A DNA stretch of 64,000 bases, from contig JAHDVP010000003.1 in the NCBI GenBank assembly GCA_023384575.1, positions 1 through 64,000 of the forward strand, given 5' to 3'. The position numbers and the translations under genes are program-made. This stretch comes from Acidobacteriota bacterium (GTDB lineage: Bacteria; Acidobacteriota; Vicinamibacteria; Vicinamibacterales; JAFNAJ01). The notes beneath the pieces were generated by a model that was not told the DNA's origin, did not search any database, and saw only the letters and a program-made list of their open reading frames with translations. The stretch's first letter is position 1, and each line of letters opens with the position of its first letter. Below, piece by piece: positions 41 through 8,154 of the stretch.

Positions 41-2917
41 TCACCGTCCGCACCCCTCGACGCTGCTCGGGGTGCCCTGAGCCACGTCGAAGGGCACCCG
101 CCCATGCGCGTCGTAGGTGTAGCTGGTCGTCGCCGCGTTCACCGGCCCCGTCACGCTCGCCAGCCGCCCGTCGCCGTCGTACGCATACGTCGTCGTCTCG
201 CCCCGGGCGTTGGTCACCGTGGCGACCTCGCCCGTCGCCGCATATGTGAGCGTCGTCGTCTGTCCCGCCGCGTCGGTCACCGTCTGCGGCTGGCCACTGA
301 GGGTGTAGTCGGCGTAGCTCGCGACGAGATCGTTCGCGCCCCCGGTCGTCTGCCGCACTTCCAGCAAATCACGACCATTGGCGGCGTAGGTGTACGTCGT
401 CGTCCGGCCAAGCGGGTCGGTCCGCGACGTCACGTGACCCGACGCGTTGTAGGTCGCCAGGGTCTCCTGCGTCGTGCCGTCGTCCAGCACCCGCGCCACC
501 ACCGACGGCTGCCGCGTCCAGCCGAGCGTCCGCGTCGTTTGCCCGGGATACCGGTACCAGACGCGCCCCGCCCCAGGCCGCTCGACGCTGTGGGGCACCG
601 GCACCGCCAACAGCGGCGCATACGGCCCACTCCCCCCCTTGACCAGCCACCGCGTCACGGCCGCCGTCGCCACCTCTCCCGGCCCGGCCGCCCACGCCCG
701 CGGATCCCAATAGAACGTCACGTACTGGTCGAGCTGCGCATTCGCCGCCGCGAAGCCGGCGGGCACCTCGGCCGCCGGCACGCTCGCCGGCACCGCCGGC
801 GTCGACCAGTGATACTCCAGCCGCTCCGTCGCCCCCAGCGGCCCCGTCGCTTCGATCCACGGGTGATTGACCGGATCACTGGCCTCGTGCCGGAACGTGG
901 TCGTCCCATACGGCGTCGTCAGCGTCCCGAGGAAATCCCCCTCCAGATACCCAAACGCCGACGTCAGCCCCCCCACGTCGGTGATCGCCGCCAGCTGCCC
1001 CGTCGGCGTGTAGGTCAACGTCGCCCGGCGCCCGAAGGGGTCGGTCACCCCCGTCAGCCGCCGCGGATCCTCCGGCGCGTCGTACGCCAGCACGCTCACC
1101 TGCCCGAGCGCGTCCGTGATCGCCACGATCCGATACGCGGCATCGTAGGTGAGCGTCGCCGCGTGGCCCCGCGCATCCCGCACCTCGGTGAGGAACACCC
1201 GCCGCTGGCCCACCGGCGCTGCGTCGGCCAGCGCATAGATGTCCACCCCGCCGTCCGGGTGCCGCCGCTCGTACCGGATCGGATCGGCCGACACCCGCAC
1301 GAGCTGCGCTCGACTCCGCCAGTGCGCGGGGTAGGCACCGCCCGCATCGGGTGGGCCCTCGAAGATTTCCTCCCCACCCCCGCGGAGGTACAGCGAGATG
1401 TGCTCGGGCACGTACTCGTTGCTGAAGCCAGGGTCGATCCAGAAGGGCACTTCCTTCGCGTAGCTGACCCAGTGCAGCGTCCACCGCGGCCCGACGTGCG
1501 TGTAGGCGAACAGCGCGGGCTGGAGCGTCTGCCGGGCGTCGTAGGTGAGCGTGAAGGGGATCGCCGGCCCGCGGGCCGGCACGTACCCGGCCGGCGTGTC
1601 GGTCAGGACGAGCCCGGCGCTCGACGCCTTGAAGGCATACGTGGCCACCCCGCACGAGGGGCCCCCGCAGGCCGGCGCAGTCGGGCCGGCCGGCGCGGGC
1701 CCGCCCGCGGCGCCTCCGCCCACACAGCACGTCCCCTGCGGCGGGTCACAGGGCTCATTGCGCTCCGGCGCCCCGGGCGGGCACGACTGCCCCACGACGG
1801 CCGCCGCCTCGGCCGCCGAGGGCGTGCGCCAGCCCGCCGGCACCGCCGCCGTCTCCACCAGCCCGTACCCCGTACTCTCCGCCTCGAGCGCCGCCGCCGC
1901 CCACCAGCGCGTGCCGCCGAAGGCCGGATCGTGCAGCTGATACGCCTCGCCCCGCCGATCGACGACCGCCACGTAATGCCCCAGGTTGAGGTGGACGATC
2001 GCGGGCACCGGCAGGGCCGCCCCCGGCGGGCGCACCACCATGGCCAGGTCCAGACCGGCCGCCTGAGCGAGCGCCTGTACCTCGGCCAGGCTGGCGCCCG
2101 TGCCGCCCCCCGGCCGGGGCGACGCGATCGCCGGCGGCTCGCCCCGCCGCCGCGCGCGCAGCACCGCCACGGCCTGCGCCCCGGACGGAATCACGTGGTC
2201 CGGCTGCGCGCGCAGCTGCGCCAGCACGAGCCGCGCCTGTTGCACCTTCGCGCCCCCGCTGCCGCCGAGCGGCGTGCCGGCAAGCGCCGCGAGGCGGGCC
2301 TCCAGCGCCGACGTCTGCCCGACGGTCGCCAGCGCGTCGAGCGCGTCCCCCAGCGCGAGGCCCGCCACCGCCCGCCCCGCCGGCGTCTCGACGTCCCGCG
2401 CGAGCGCCCACGCGTCGTCCCACGCCGCGAGGGCCCGCGACAGATAGCCTTGCGCCCAGAGGACCGCGGCGAGGTTCGCCTGCACCGAGGCCCGCCATGC
2501 CGAGCGGGGATGCGCGGCGAGGAACGCCTCGAACGGCGTCACGTCGTCGAGCCGCCCGGCCGCCCGATACGCGCGAAGGGCCGCGCCGAGCGCGCGGTTC
2601 TCGTCTGGGGTCGTCGCCCCCCCGACCGGCACGAACGGCTCGCCCAGCACCCGCGCCCGGAAGATCTCCTCGTCGGTCGGCGTCGGCGAGAAGACCGGCG
2701 TGGGGGCGGGCGGCGTGACCCGCGGCACCGTGCGATTCACGCGCCCGGGCGCCGCCGCAGGGTCCTGCACCGCCGCCCGCGGCCCACTCGCCATCGGGGC
2801 CGCGGTCAGGCCGACGAGGCCCGGCGCGGCGAGGACGACGACGGCGAGCCCACGCGCCAGACGACGGCGGACGCGCAAGGGCGAGAGGGCGGCGAGGCGT
2901 TTGAGGCTCCCACGCAT
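41..2917 (-). CDS. Secreted C39-like/RHS (YD-repeat) protein, disrupted near its left end
   Basis: Start is the ATG at 2917, preceded by a good AGGAAGG ribosome site, and gives 958 residues. The first 45 residues form a basic stretch and a hydrophobic signal-like segment. Residues about 85-240 are helical, possibly TPR-like. Residues 275-340 resemble the back half of a C39-type peptidase domain, with GHYVAVVD at 313-320 and HDPAFGG at 329-335. The place where the catalytic Cys should lie reads SGAQAV, so the domain looks inactive. From about residue 410 come RHS/YD repeats (RTDPLGRTTTYTY, TDAAGQTTTLTY). The frame ends at 41-43 only because of a 44-bp insertion. Without it the YD repeats continue past the window edge. 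RHS proteins usually end in a variable C-terminal, often toxic, domain, and that part is not visible. It lies 59 bp downstream of the RCC1 gene, probably co-transcribed. Confidence 0.85.
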   Translation of the reverse strand: MRGSLKRLAALSPLRVRRRLARGLAVVVLAAPGLVGLTAAPMASGPRAAVQDPAAAPGRVNRTVPRVTPPAPTPVFSPTPTDEEIFRARVLGEPFVPVGGATTPDENRALGAALRAYRAAGRLDDVTPFEAFLAAHPRSAWRASVQANLAAVLWAQGYLSRALAAWDDAWALARDVETPAGRAVAGLALGDALDALATVGQTSALEARLAALAGTPLGGSGGAKVQQARLVLAQLRAQPDHVIPSGAQAVAVLRARRRGEPPAIASPRPGGGTGASLAEVQALAQAAGLDLAMVVRPPGAALPVPAIVHLNLGHYVAVVDRRGEAYQLHDPAFGGTRWWAAAALEAESTGYGLVETAAVPAGWRTPSAAEAAAVVGQSCPPGAPERNEPCDPPQGTCCVGGGAAGGPAPAGPTAPACGGPSCGVATYAFKASSAGLVLTDTPAGYVPARGPAIPFTLTYDARQTLQPALFAYTHVGPRWTLHWVSYAKEVPFWIDPGFSNEYVPEHISLYLRGGGEEIFEGPPDAGGAYPAHWRSRAQLVRVSADPIRYERRHPDGGVDIYALADAAPVGQRRVFLTEVRDARGHAATLTYDAAYRIVAITDALGQVSVLAYDAPEDPRRLTGVTDPFGRRATLTYTPTGQLAAITDVGGLTSAFGYLEGDFLGTLTTPYGTTTFRHEASDPVNHPWIEATGPLGATERLEYHWSTPAVPASVPAAEVPAGFAAANAQLDQYVTFYWDPRAWAAGPGEVATAAVTRWLVKGGSGPYAPLLAVPVPHSVERPGAGRVWYRYPGQTTRTLGWTRQPSVVARVLDDGTTQETLATYNASGHVTSRTDPLGRTTTYTYAANGRDLLEVRQTTGGANDLVASYADYTLSGQPQTVTDAAGQTTTLTYAATGEVATVTNARGETTTYAYDGDGRLASVTGPVNAATTSYTYDAHGRVPFDVAQGTPSSVEGCGR
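51..99. repeat. 44-bp palindromic (REP-like) insertion with 5-bp direct repeats
   Basis: The extra 44 bp are at 51-94. The direct repeat CACCC occurs at 51-55 and again at 95-99. Read on the minus strand the unit begins CCCTTCGACGTGGCT and ends AGCAGCGTCGAGGGG. These ends are near inverted copies of each other, so the unit can fold into a hairpin. Removing 44 bp restores the RHS frame with a natural YD-repeat continuation (GRVRTVTADEATV). The length is not a multiple of three, so the insertion truncates the protein. Short palindromes of this type (TTCGAC...CTCAGGGC) are common in environmental bacterial genomes. That statement is from memory and was not searched. Confidence 0.75.
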
Positions 2918-2976
2918 GGATCGTGTCCTTCCTGGTTCAGGGGACCGGACCGGGACGCGGTGTCGGCCGGAGCCGC

Positions 2977-5900
2977 CTACGGGTCGGGCGGCAGCGGGCG
3001 CGCCGACGTCGGCGCCTCGAGCGTGATGACCGGCGGCGTCACGTCGCCGGGCGTGGGCGCGAGCGGCAGCCAGCGGGTCGGGTCGAGCGGGAACGCATCC
3101 TCGCCGTCGCCCACGCCATCGCCATCCGTATCGAAGAGGAACGGGTCGGTGCCCCAAAGCACTTCGACCACCGTCGGCACGCCATCGCCGTCGGGGTCCG
3201 GATGGGCCGCGTGGTCCCAGAGGGCCACGCGCTCGCCATCGAGGAGGCCGTCGCCGACCGAGTCGGCACGCGTCGGGTCCGTCCCGAGCAGGAGTTCCCG
3301 CCACGTCGGCAGCCCGTCGGCGTCCGGGTCGGCGGTGAGCCCCACGTTGGCCACCAGGCTGAAGTCGGGAAGGACCTCGGGCCGCAAGGCAGTAATCGTC
3401 GTGCCGAGGCCGAGCTGGCCGCTGAGATTCCGCCCCGTCGCCCACACGCGCCCGTCGGCGGCCACGACGAGCGAATGGTCGCTGCCGGCCACGTCGACGG
3501 CGCTCGCGACGTCGAGCATGCGCCTCGGGGTCGTGCAGGCACCGCCGCTGCAGGAGACGGCGCCGACGCCGAGCTGGCCGTACCCGGTACTGCCCCAGCC
3601 CCACACGCGCCCCGCGTCGGTCACCGCGAGCGTGTGCGCCCGCCCGGTGGCCAGCCGCGTCACGACGCCGAACGCCACGGTGGGGGCCGGCCACGGCGAC
3701 GCGGCGCCCGCCGGACGCCCAAGCTCGCCGTCGCCGTTGGCGCCCCAGCTCCACACCGCGCCGTCGGCCGTCGCGAGCACGGCCCACTCGCGCCCGGCCC
3801 GCACGGTCGTCGCCGGCGGCACGCCGACGACACGGATCGGCGCCAGGCGGCTGACCGTGCTGCCGTCGCCGAGCTGGCCCTGGTGGTTGCGGCCCCAGGT
3901 CCAGACGCTCCCCGCCGCGGCGCCATCGCGCACGAGCGCCGCCGAGAAGGCGTCGCCGCCCGCCACCTCACGGGCCCCGACGAGGCCCGCGACCAGCACC
4001 GGCGTGTAGCGGTCCACGGTCGTGCCATCGCCCAGTTGCCCGTGGCTGTTGCTGCCCCACGCCCACACGCGGCCATCGGCCGTCACGGCCAGCGAGTGCG
4101 CCGCCCCCGCCGCAACCGCGACGACGTTCGTCAGCCCGACCACGGGCGTCGGCACGCGCCGCTGGTAGATCGTCCCGTCGCCCAGGCGGCCGTAAGTGTT
4201 GCGCCCCCAGGCGCGGACGGTGCCGTCGGCGAGCAGCGCCAGCGAGTGCTCGTCGCCGGCCGCAATCGCCACCACGCCCGTCAGCACCGGGACCGGGCTC
4301 CACCGGTCGGTCGCGGTGTCGTCACCCACCTGGCCGTAGTAGTTGCTCCCGAACCCGTACACCGTGCCGTCGGCGGCCAGCGCGAGGCTGTGGAGTCGGC
4401 CCGCGGCCACGGCGCCCGTGATGAGGAAACTCGCGCGCCGCGGGGCGCTCGGTGCGAGGCCCGCCGCCCACGCCCGCACCGTCAGGACCAGCCCGCGGTC
4501 GACGAGGATCGTCCCGCCCGAGGCCACCGCCGGGTCCGTCTCGGTCGGCAGGGCGCCAGTCGTCGTGTAGCGCAGCGTCGCCCCGGGCGAGCCGGTCACC
4601 GTCACGGCCTGCGCCGTGGCGAAGCGGCCGCCGCCCGGCGACAGCGTCGGGGTGGCCGCCGTGTCGGGCGCGTCGAGCACGAACACGGCCGACGCCGGGG
4701 CGCTCGGGGTGAAGCCGCTCGCCGAGGCCACCGCCGTGACGGTCGTGCGTGCCGTGATGAGGAGCGGGACCCCGGCGTAGACCGGCGAGGTGGCGGTGGG
4801 CACCGTCCCGTCGAGCGTGTAGCGGACGGTCGCCCCCGGCGTGGACGTCGTCAGGGTCACGAGCGTGGGCCCGGTGAAGACGCCGCCGGCTGGCGAGATG
4901 ACCGGCGTCGCCACCGTCCCCTCGGCGATCCAGTAGCTGGCCGCCGCGCTCGCACTCGGCGTCCACCCGGGCTTGAAGGCCACGACTTTCAGCGTGAGGG
5001 CCCGGTCGACCGCGATCGGCCCGGTGTACGGGGGAGAGTCGGCCGTGGGCTCCGTGCCATCGAGCGTGGTGGTGAAGGTCGCCCCGGGTGTGGCCGTCGC
5101 CACCGTCACGAGCTGCGGCGCGGCGTAGGCGCCACTGGCGGGGAGGATCTCCGGGGTCACCACGCGCAGCTCGTAGGCGGCCGTCGCCACGAGGCTCGTC
5201 GGCGCCCCGGGTTTCCAGGCGCTCACGGACACCGTCGTGCTCACGTCGATGGCCAGGGCGCTGCCCGAAGCCACCACCGGGTCGGCCGGCGTCGGCACCG
5301 CCCCCGTGAGCGTGTAGTGCAGCGTGGCCTCCGGGTCGAGGCACGTGACGGTGACGGTCTGCGCGGCCAGGTACTGGCCGGCGGGCAGGCTCAGCTCCGG
5401 CGTCGCGAGGCGCCAGCTGAAGCCGGCCCCCGCGACGTTGACGGGCGAGAGGCGCGTCGTGGTCGTCCCGTCGCCCAGCCGGCCGGTCCCGTTGCTCCCC
5501 CACGTCCACACCGCGCCGTCCGCCGTCACCGCCACCACGTGCGACGAGCCCGCCGCGATCGCGGCGATCGGCGGCAGGCCCGGCACCAGCTGCGGCAGCC
5601 GCCGCGTCGTCGTCGTGCCATCGCCGAGCTGCCCGCTGCCGTTCGCCCCCCAGGCCCACACTGCCCCGCTCGCCGTCAGGGCGAGCGAGAACGACGACCC
5701 GGCCGCGACCGCGACGACGTCCGTCAGGCCCGCCACCGGCGCCGGAATCCGCCGGTCCGTCGACCCGCCGTCCCCGAGCTGCCCGTCCGCGTTCTCGCCC
5801 CAGGTGGAGACCACCCCCGCGTCGGTCAGCGCCAGCGCATGCCACCCCCCGGCGGCCATGGCCGTCACGCCCGACAGGGTCAGGACCACGCCGGGCGTCG

Positions 5901-8154
5901 ACCGACCGACCGTGGTGCCGTCGCCGAGCTGGCCCGTCGTGTTCGATCCCCAACTCCACAGCGTCCCGTCCGCTCGCCGCGCGAGGGAGTAGAGACTGCC
6001 CCCGGCGACGTGCGTCACCCCGTCGAGCCCCACGACCGGCGCCGCCACCGCACGCCCCGTCGTCGTGCCATCGCCGAGCTGCCCGGCGCTGTTCACGCCC
6101 CACGCCCACACGATCCCATCCGCCTCGACGGCCAGTCCGTGTGAGCTCCCGGCACTGACCTGCACCACGTCGGCGAGATTGAGCACCGCCACCGGGAGGG
6201 TTCGGCTGGTGGTCGTCCCATCGCCGAGCCGCCCGCCGCTGTTGGACCCCCAGGCGACCACCCCGCCATCGGCGCGCCGCGCCAACGTGTAGCTGTCGCC
6301 CGCCGAGAGCTGGCGCACGCCCGTCAGGCCCGCCACGGCCACCGCGAGGAGGCGATTCGTCAGCGTCCCCTCGCCGAGCTGCCCCTGCGTGTTGTTCCCC
6401 CACGTGAGCGCCGTGCCGTCGGCCCGGAGCGCCAGCGAGTGCGCGTGCCCCGCCGCGACGCCAACCGGCGTCGCGGGCCCCGACACCGCATAGGTGGCCG
6501 TGCGCGTGGCGCTAGGCGTCGCGCCCGCCTTCCACGCCTTCGCCGTCAGCGTGTAGTCGCCCACGAAGAGCCCCTGGGTCGGCCCGATCGCGGGATCGCT
6601 CGCCGTGGGCTCCTGCCCGTCGAGGCGATACCGTACCGTCGCGCCCGGCGTCGCCGTCGTCACCCCCACCGTCTGGCCCGGGTCGTAGGTGCCGCCCGGC
6701 GGCGTGACCTCGGGCGTCGCCACGACGATCGTGTACGTCGCCCCCACCACGCTGCTCGCCGCGTATTGCGGGTGGTAGACGCGCGCCTGCAGGGTCGTCG
6801 TCGCCTCGAGGACGAGCGGCGCCGTGTAGATCGGCGAGGCCGTCGTCGGCGTGGTCCCGTTGGTCGTGTAGCGAATCGTCGCACCAGGAATCGCCGTGAG
6901 CGTCACGACGGCGGCGCTCTCGTAGGTCCCCGTGCCGGGCTGCAGCTCGGGCGGCGGCGCGGGGCCGAAGTGCATCGTGTAGGTCGCCGTGCGCACCCCG
7001 CTCGGCGTCCAGCCGTCCCGGAAGGCCACCGCTTTGAGCGTCAGGCTCGTGTCGATCCACAGCGGCGCGTCGTAGAGCGTCGCCTGCGCATCCGGCGTCG
7101 ACCCGTCGAGCGTGTAGCGAAGGATCGCCTCCGCCGTGGTCGTCGCGAGCGACACCGTCTGCGGCGTCGTGTAGGTGCCGCCCCCGGGCGACACCGTCGG
7201 CGTCACCGCCTGCAGCGTGTACGCCGCCACCTGCTCGTGGCTCGGCGGCCAGCCCGCCTTCACCGCCCGCGCGCGCAACGTCGCACTCCGATCCACCGTC
7301 ACCGTGCCGCCGGAGGCGACGGAGGGGGACGCCGGCGTCGGCTCGGTGTCGTCGAGGGTGTAGTGGATCGTCGCCTCGGGCGTGAGCGTGCTCACCGTCA
7401 CCGTGCGCGGCGTGCTGTAGGTGCCGCTCGCCACGCTGAAGGTCGGCGTGGCAACCTTCCACGCGTAGCCCGGATCGCTGATCGCGCGGGGGACGCCGCG
7501 CGTCTGCGTCGTCCCGTCCCCGAGCTGACCGCTCGCGTTGCCGCCCCACACCCACACCACCCCATCCGCCGTCACGGCGAGGGCGAAATCGGCCCCCGCC
7601 GTCACCTGGGTCTGCGCGGGGAGGTCGGGCACGACGGTCGGCGTCTTGAGGCTCGTCGTCAGGCCGTTGCCCAGCTGGCTGCTCTGGTTGCGCCCCCACG
7701 CCCAGAGGACGCCGCTCGCCGTGAGCGCCGCCGAGTGCGCCTCGCCCGCGGCAATGGCGATGATCTGCGTCAGGCCGGGCACGGCGACCGGCGACGTCCG
7801 CTGCGTGGTCGTGCCGTCGCCAAGCTGGCCGTCGTTGTTGCGGCCCACCGCCCACACCGTGCCGTCCTGCTTCAGGAACACCGTGTGGAAGGCGCCGGCG
7901 GCCACCGCGACGACGTCCGCGATCGGCAGCGCCGTGGGCACGCGGCGCTGGGTCGTCGTGCCGTCGCCCAGCTGGCCGTAGCTATTGCTGCCCCACGCCC
8001 AGACCTGCCCGGCCGGCGTCACGAGCACCGTGTGGGCGCCGCCCGCCGCCACCGGGCCGGCCTCGCCCGTCGCGACGCTGGCCGCCACCAGCACGCTCGC
8101 CGCGATCCCCAGGCCACCGCCCCTCGTCCAGCGCCCGGTGGGTGCCGTCTGCAT
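2977..8154 (-). CDS. Giant secreted RCC1-propeller / chitobiase-C-terminal-repeat protein
   Basis: 1725 residues starting at the ATG at 8154, with an N-terminal signal-like hydrophobic segment. I count 18 RCC1 units (consensus WAWGSNxxGQLGDGTTTxR) in blocks of 4, 7 and 7. The blocks are separated by two groups of four beta-sandwich repeats of the CHB_HEX_C type (ATPxxSPxGGTYxxPQTV ... ATIRYTLDGxxPT ... LTLKAxAFKxGWTPS). The C-terminus has aspartate-rich thrombospondin-3-like calcium repeats (DTDGDGVGDGEDAFPLDP) and stops just after a DVTPPVITL segment, which often begins a HYR or Ig-like domain. Seven RCC1 units make one propeller, so two full propellers and a four-blade remnant are expected. 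The likely role is cell-surface or extracellular binding or adhesion; no catalytic residues are recognisable. It is followed at 59 bp by the RHS gene. Confidence 0.9.
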   Translation of the reverse strand: MQTAPTGRWTRGGGLGIAASVLVAASVATGEAGPVAAGGAHTVLVTPAGQVWAWGSNSYGQLGDGTTTQRRVPTALPIADVVAVAAGAFHTVFLKQDGTVWAVGRNNDGQLGDGTTTQRTSPVAVPGLTQIIAIAAGEAHSAALTASGVLWAWGRNQSSQLGNGLTTSLKTPTVVPDLPAQTQVTAGADFALAVTADGVVWVWGGNASGQLGDGTTQTRGVPRAISDPGYAWKVATPTFSVASGTYSTPRTVTVSTLTPEATIHYTLDDTEPTPASPSVASGGTVTVDRSATLRARAVKAGWPPSHEQVAAYTLQAVTPTVSPGGGTYTTPQTVSLATTTAEAILRYTLDGSTPDAQATLYDAPLWIDTSLTLKAVAFRDGWTPSGVRTATYTMHFGPAPPPELQPGTGTYESAAVVTLTAIPGATIRYTTNGTTPTTASPIYTAPLVLEATTTLQARVYHPQYAASSVVGATYTIVVATPEVTPPGGTYDPGQTVGVTTATPGATVRYRLDGQEPTASDPAIGPTQGLFVGDYTLTAKAWKAGATPSATRTATYAVSGPATPVGVAAGHAHSLALRADGTALTWGNNTQGQLGEGTLTNRLLAVAVAGLTGVRQLSAGDSYTLARRADGGVVAWGSNSGGRLGDGTTTSRTLPVAVLNLADVVQVSAGSSHGLAVEADGIVWAWGVNSAGQLGDGTTTGRAVAAPVVGLDGVTHVAGGSLYSLARRADGTLWSWGSNTTGQLGDGTTVGRSTPGVVLTLSGVTAMAAGGWHALALTDAGVVSTWGENADGQLGDGGSTDRRIPAPVAGLTDVVAVAAGSSFSLALTASGAVWAWGANGSGQLGDGTTTTRRLPQLVPGLPPIAAIAAGSSHVVAVTADGAVWTWGSNGTGRLGDGTTTTRLSPVNVAGAGFSWRLATPELSLPAGQYLAAQTVTVTCLDPEATLHYTLTGAVPTPADPVVASGSALAIDVSTTVSVSAWKPGAPTSLVATAAYELRVVTPEILPASGAYAAPQLVTVATATPGATFTTTLDGTEPTADSPPYTGPIAVDRALTLKVVAFKPGWTPSASAAASYWIAEGTVATPVISPAGGVFTGPTLVTLTTSTPGATVRYTLDGTVPTATSPVYAGVPLLITARTTVTAVASASGFTPSAPASAVFVLDAPDTAATPTLSPGGGRFATAQAVTVTGSPGATLRYTTTGALPTETDPAVASGGTILVDRGLVLTVRAWAAGLAPSAPRRASFLITGAVAAGRLHSLALAADGTVYGFGSNYYGQVGDDTATDRWSPVPVLTGVVAIAAGDEHSLALLADGTVRAWGRNTYGRLGDGTIYQRRVPTPVVGLTNVVAVAAGAAHSLAVTADGRVWAWGSNSHGQLGDGTTVDRYTPVLVAGLVGAREVAGGDAFSAALVRDGAAAGSVWTWGRNHQGQLGDGSTVSRLAPIRVVGVPPATTVRAGREWAVLATADGAVWSWGANGDGELGRPAGAASPWPAPTVAFGVVTRLATGRAHTLAVTDAGRVWGWGSTGYGQLGVGAVSCSGGACTTPRRMLDVASAVDVAGSDHSLVVAADGRVWATGRNLSGQLGLGTTITALRPEVLPDFSLVANVGLTADPDADGLPTWRELLLGTDPTRADSVGDGLLDGERVALWDHAAHPDPDGDGVPTVVEVLWGTDPFLFDTDGDGVGDGEDAFPLDPTRWLPLAPTPGDVTPPVITLEAPTSARPLPPDP

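Follow-up and report, generated by a model that had tools for sequence, protein, structure and literature searches.

A multi-propeller RCC1 protein encoded beside an RHS gene in Acidobacteriota: a candidate recognition partner in a two-gene, polymorphic-toxin-like system

What might a bacterial protein do with 18 blades of the RCC1 type interleaved with eight chitobiase-type sandwiches, and how does it relate to the RHS protein encoded next to it? These questions are raised by a locus at one end of the window, i.e. the whole 64,000-nucleotide stretch of Acidobacteriota DNA analysed here, whose base 1 is also base 1 of its contig. The multi-propeller protein, gene A, is translated from a single open reading frame of 1725 amino acids and has the following parts, where R stands for RCC1 blades and C for CHB_HEX_C_1 sandwiches:

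2977..8154, minus strand: gene A, multi-propeller protein, R4-C4-R7-C4-R7-TSP3-tail (open reading frame, translation, Pfam, relatives)
8056..8154, minus strand: signal-peptide-like N-terminus, residues 1-33 (basic start, then a hydrophobic run; read from the sequence)
7468..8052, minus strand: propeller 1, four RCC1 blades fitting blades 1-3 and 7 of relatives, with 4-6 absent (RCC1 hits, alignment with three relatives, AlphaFold open arc)
6502..7431, minus strand: first set of four CHB_HEX_C_1 sandwiches (PF13290 hits, relatives position by position)
5425..6486, minus strand: propeller 2, seven RCC1 blades, predicted complete ring (RCC1 hits, AlphaFold pLDDT 93-98, UVR8 Z 57)
4453..5385, minus strand: second set of four CHB_HEX_C_1 sandwiches (PF13290 hits; five units in relatives of families f6 and f16)
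3361..4437, minus strand: propeller 3, seven RCC1 blades (RCC1 hits, AlphaFold model)
3097..3342, minus strand: TSP3-like calcium repeats, residues 1604-1686 (MtsD-like match; conserved in relatives)
2980..3045, minus strand: conserved C-terminal peptide DVTPPVITLEAPTSARPLPPDP at the protein end (shared by 11 proteins, in which it holds the same place and ends almost identically)

A Pfam scan of this 1725-residue frame recovered 18 RCC1 stretches (7.3e-177), with all 18 units over the Pfam cut-off, and eight CHB_HEX_C_1 (PF13290) stretches (8.8e-100), each scoring 29.8-70.5 bits against a curated cut-off of 22 bits. Placed on the DNA, the unit borders are exactly R4-C4-R7-C4-R7, and a profile search of the whole genome returned no further RCC1 or CHB_HEX_C_1 matches outside gene A. 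Thus, the 18 blades and two sets of four chitobiase-type repeats counted in an earlier note, made from the sequence alone, agree with both searches, and the calcium repeats that it placed at the end of the protein are seen as TSP3-like units with DxDGDG repeats in the translation. A chance origin of the pattern is excluded by these E-values together with its conservation in other genera. A match to the NCBIfam model DUF499_antiphage, at 23 of 1200 bits, lies far under its cut-off and was ignored. The closing (velcro) blade of a propeller combines a lone strand at the start with a partial unit at the end; each RCC1 group of gene A opens with a lone strand of the form AAGxxHxL, and its final unit matches only the first 32-33 profile positions.

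The AlphaFold model of residues 556-1600 has a mean pLDDT of 82, with the blocks of propeller 2 at 93-98, and its propeller 2 matches UVR8 with a Z of 57 at 1.8 A over 354 residues; the match to BLIP-II (Z 29) is a likeness of fold alone. The modelling supports a closed seven-blade ring for propeller 2, and the two complete seven-blade propellers predicted earlier are upheld by this UVR8 match over ~355 residues and by the seven units of propeller 3. In the model of residues 28-572, the four blades of propeller 1 (pLDDT ~89-98) superpose on residues 118-355 of the UVR8 seven-blade ring, with 1.3 A over 210 residues, and propeller 1 is predicted to be an open arc of seven-blade curvature. A closed four-blade ring was considered and found unsupported, since the model keeps the seven-blade curvature, though the seven-blade alignment behind the model may bias it in this direction. 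The first sandwich after propeller 1 has a pLDDT below 50 and no confident placement, and the overall pTM of the gene A models is 0.45-0.47, with the relative arrangement of the parts not being fixed by them.

The four-blade group can be set in context by comparison with relatives, some of which belong to the same family, some to further families of the order and some to a different family of the class. Both G001 and G027 have R7-C4-R7-C4-R7; G058 and G065 have R7-C4-R7-C5-R7, with a frame break inside propeller 1 of the latter; G355:C37 has R7-C4-R7-C4-R7-C5-R6 by profile count; G212 has R7-C1-R7-C4-R7-C4-R7-C5-R7; and G055, divided between two contigs, has R7-C4-R7-C2 and C3-R7. As read from these sequences, the ancestral layout of gene A is one of seven-blade propellers separated by sandwich stacks, of which the relatives have three, four or five propellers. 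In the alignment, blades 1-3 of the window protein fit blades 1-3 of the relatives and its last blade fits blade 7, with the gap corresponding to blades 4-6; the loss of three blades from a seven-blade ring, as opposed to a design feature, is the supported explanation of propeller 1. Such losses in the first propeller seem to be recurrent because the G461 protein (R4-C8-R7) has a four-blade first group too. A regular 4-7-7 design is rejected by the seven-blade first groups of the relatives: the grouping given in the earlier note holds as a count for the window protein, but the 4 falls outside the regular pattern, and the first propeller is indeed partial, an open arc of four blades, though by loss and not by design. 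Likewise, its 'exactly four' sandwiches between groups are found in families f1 and f2, but f6 and f16 have a fifth unit in the last set. Nearly every sandwich of the window protein has its best match in G001 and G027 at the same position, and the sandwich sets are therefore old and not freshly amplified. Arrays of three, four or five rings, with one ring broken, offer a natural series for the study of blade gain and loss. Other RCC1 layouts were also encountered: a second G001 paralogue (L081, G001:C442) with R7-C4-R7-C3 and an Ig-like C-terminal region in place of TSP3, a 4002-codon open frame with four groups of ~14 RCC1 units (L086, G023:C21), a 9192-codon open frame with dozens of scattered RCC1 units in an Oscillospiraceae locus (L060), and a spirochaete locus (L061) in which a six-CHB frame and a seven-RCC1 frame overlap by a few bases.

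Immediately downstream of gene A lies an RHS gene, gene B, which runs into the contig start:

41..2917, minus strand: gene B, RHS protein, cut by the contig start (RHS/YD repeats; 39% identity over 971 columns to the gene after gene A in G027)
2927..2933, minus strand: ribosome-binding-site-like AGGAAGG before gene B (sequence)
1859..2200, minus strand: C39-peptidase-like domain in gene B with Ser at the catalytic Cys position, His and Asp kept (weak Pfam, alignment of 20 homologous copies)
52..95, no strand: REP-like palindrome inside gene B at the contig edge (sequence; 81% match to contig C57:1577-1636)

Its RHS/YD core is recognized by PF05593 (5.9e-26) and TIGR01643 (8.5e-26), and it starts 59 bases past the end of gene A. 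A single frame running through both genes by frameshift was rejected in view of the stop, the 59-base gap, the ribosome site and the new start, and is also contradicted by the relatives, whose stop occupies the same place. In the window, G027, G058, G065, G055, G212 and G355:C37, gene A immediately precedes an RHS gene on the same strand, and G001 has both genes on separate contigs. At least seven loci of the class thus keep the arrangement beside RHS genes, and the RHS gene becomes the key to the function of gene A. The pair occurs across families and in another order. The RHS N-terminal part of gene B is present in only 6 of the 162 genomes of the order and gives strong matches in 13 of the 396 genomes of the phylum. 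We regard gene A and the RHS gene as a conserved two-gene unit, a partnership that is well supported. Nine phylum genomes outside the class have an RHS relative but no gene A, so the RHS family does not need gene A. In G065, tandem GTGTCCGGCTTCAGCCGG-like units lie between gene A and gene B (L112:6335-6660).

Across the alignment of 20 copies, the Cys/His/Asp triad of peptidase C39 is incomplete in gene B, with Ser in place of Cys; the same Ser is found in G001, G055, G058, G065, G027 and G355:C37, and the Cys is kept in the 13 other copies, including G212, G355:C21 and all partner-less ones. It is likely that peptidase activity disappeared within the RCC1-partnered branch. The window gene B is cut before its core end, and the relatives supply what follows: in G027, G055, G065, G212 and both G355 loci the RHS cores end in DPxG and continue into unrelated tips. 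In the genome of the window itself, contig C57:2-5805 (L115) carries four RHS core-end copies in 5.8 kb, ~77-87% alike at the DNA level, with different tips and some out of frame. These are likely to be orphan tip cassettes, perhaps located downstream of gene B. A REP-like palindrome lies within RHS coding sequence at two places, window positions 52-95 and C57:1577-1636.

The broken first ring could have causes other than an evolutionary loss in a working protein. We consider it improbable that the missing blades reflect an assembly collapse of similar repeats in a true R7-C4-R7-C4-R7 gene: almost every other complete group of the gene pairs is seven-bladed and the assembly is fragmented into 112 contigs, but the aligned blades diverge well beyond the level at which reads collapse, the junction is in frame and G461 repeats the four-blade first group. 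That the window copy is decaying, with a propeller 1 that cannot close and an interrupted gene B making this pair nonfunctional in an otherwise functional family, is somewhat unlikely. It would account for the three missing blades, the open arc in the AlphaFold model, the palindrome at the point where gene B departs from its relatives and the frame break in the corresponding propeller of G065. However, gene A remains open across 1725 codons with all its remaining units conserved, and gene B stops just where the contig begins, which may be an artefact of the assembly.

The heads of these proteins vary and their tails are constant. The tail is formed by the last ~120 residues of gene A and comprises the TSP3 repeats and a terminal peptide of ~20 residues, whose consensus in an alignment of 11 proteins is DHTPPVITLxEPTxAxxIP; the end points of all 11 differ by a few residues at most, and the P, I, T, P and A positions are invariant. 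The protein at G355:C21 has a PKD head and no RCC1, and bears the same TSP3 tail and terminal peptide before an RHS gene of the same family. In every class member with both sides readable, a tail-bearing gene lies directly upstream of an RHS relative. Among the 396 phylum genomes, the full tail is restricted to six: that of the window (G000), G027, G212, G355 (twice), G461 and G501.

The partnered RHS proteins have an Ig-like insert towards the end of their core, and where Pfam sees it the Glucodextran_B match begins at position 19-29, the first 18-28 positions being absent. This insert is present in seven of seven family members with a tail-bearing partner and an intact end, counting G001 with its partner on another contig, and in none of the four without a partner; the loci are related by descent and these counts are not independent, so the co-occurrence is an association and not an independent test. 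Strong matches to the insert among the 396 phylum genomes are confined to G000 (contig C57), G027, G212, G355 (twice) and G501. The last of these has an RHS N-terminus of another kind (DUF6531), yet both the tail and the insert; G461 has a tail-bearing gene A but only disrupted RHS reading frames, which show no Ig insert. As a caution, TPPxIT strands are common starts of Ig-like domains. A full-length Ig-type domain (L085) opens with a strand, TAPVVVITSP, resembling the gene A tail. On their own, the tail peptides had no match in Pfam, so the strand assignment comes from a reading of the sequences.

We infer from these patterns that the tail may dock gene A onto the RHS protein. Since a complete domain of the insert's type opens with a strand like the tail, strand complementation would be the simplest physical link between tail and insert. 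The specific proposal, that the last strand of gene A completes the Ig-like insert of gene B, so that RCC1 or PKD heads are exchangeable and the lock constant, is a tentative one and, as we judge it, unlikely in this exact form. If true, it would provide a short peptide-domain pair open to direct test. It is possible, though doubtful, that the tail is just a relic, left over when one ancestral polypeptide was split within an Ig-like domain, and makes no present contact with gene B; the tail does read as an Ig-domain first strand and gene fusions exist, but the nearly identical end point of 11 proteins and their unvarying P, I, T, P and A positions speak against a relic, as does the different domain with which gene B opens.

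With middling confidence, we propose a two-gene, polymorphic-toxin-like system in which gene A provides target recognition or tethering and the RHS protein is the other half. The inference draws on the exchangeable tips after DPxG, on the reported toxin delivery by teneurin-like proteins, and on a polypeptide of G027 (L082, G027:C23:85498-91470) in which RCC1x7-CHBx2 is joined to matches for the teneurin TTR, FN-plug and YD-shell before running off the contig end. Gene A would be an exported, rod-like protein displayed at the surface, with the RCC1 propellers as binding rings for a glycan or surface protein, the CHB_HEX_C-type Ig-fold stacks as spacers and the TSP3 repeats as a calcium-stiffened stem. 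The RHS shell of gene B would carry the exchangeable C-terminal tip and be brought by gene A to the target surface for delivery of the toxin, the variable head binding the target and the constant tail linking to gene B, most simply by supplying the first strand that the Ig-like insert towards the core end lacks. The large surface binding machine for which the earlier note took the protein is thus a fair guess. An unlikely alternative makes gene A a stand-alone adhesin or matrix protein whose RHS neighbour is kept by regulation only. This would suit its own signal-like N-terminus and stop, the nine phylum genomes with RHS relatives but no gene A, and the ordinary nature of RCC1 and CHB domains as surface modules; it sits poorly with a pair kept across families and in another order, a swapped head with a constant tail beside the same RHS family, and the RCC1-CHB fusion to a teneurin-like RHS protein at G027:C23. 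The usual view is that an RHS protein is aimed either by its own N-terminal region or by a secretion needle. If the tethering role is true, a separate targeting rod with swappable heads, encoded beside the RHS gene, would add a further means of aiming.

Each part of this locus has known counterparts. The rhs genes undergo C-terminal displacement (PMC2935791) and RHS proteins are counted among the polymorphic toxins (PMC3482391); the DPxG ends with unrelated tips and the core-end copies of C57 fit both descriptions. Gene B shares with these toxins the RHS/YD core, and further common features are the DPxG end, exchangeable C-terminal tips and tip cassettes seen in its relatives and on C57; the C39-like domain at the N-terminus, the Ig insert and the propeller protein encoded separately just upstream set the family apart. 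Bacterial teneurin-like proteins, reported as platforms for the delivery of toxins with accompanying immunity genes (PMC13018210), are exported YD-shell proteins, and the RCC1-CHB fusion at G027:C23 carries matches to the TTR, FN-plug and YD-shell; in contrast, gene B and its relatives gave no hit to NHL, FN-plug or TTR with sequence profiles, and the head is on another gene. Gene A shares the blade sequence and seven-blade ring with RCC1-like domain proteins (UVR8, RCC1, the HERC RLDs and bacterial BLIP-II), but has several propellers in a probably exported chain, CHB spacers and a TSP3 stem, and lacks a Ran or beta-lactamase context, a bacterium giving no grounds to expect Ran. With secreted glycosidases it has in common the CHB_HEX_C_1/Fn3_assoc domains, eight units of which match Pfam over the cut-off, but it has no catalytic glycosidase domain and its units are stacked in fours or fives as spacers. 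A limited literature search found neither an RCC1-CHB_HEX_C_1 multi-propeller protein nor RCC1 linked to RHS. Each module is known, and we place their combination here as a variant of the RHS polymorphic-toxin-like systems.
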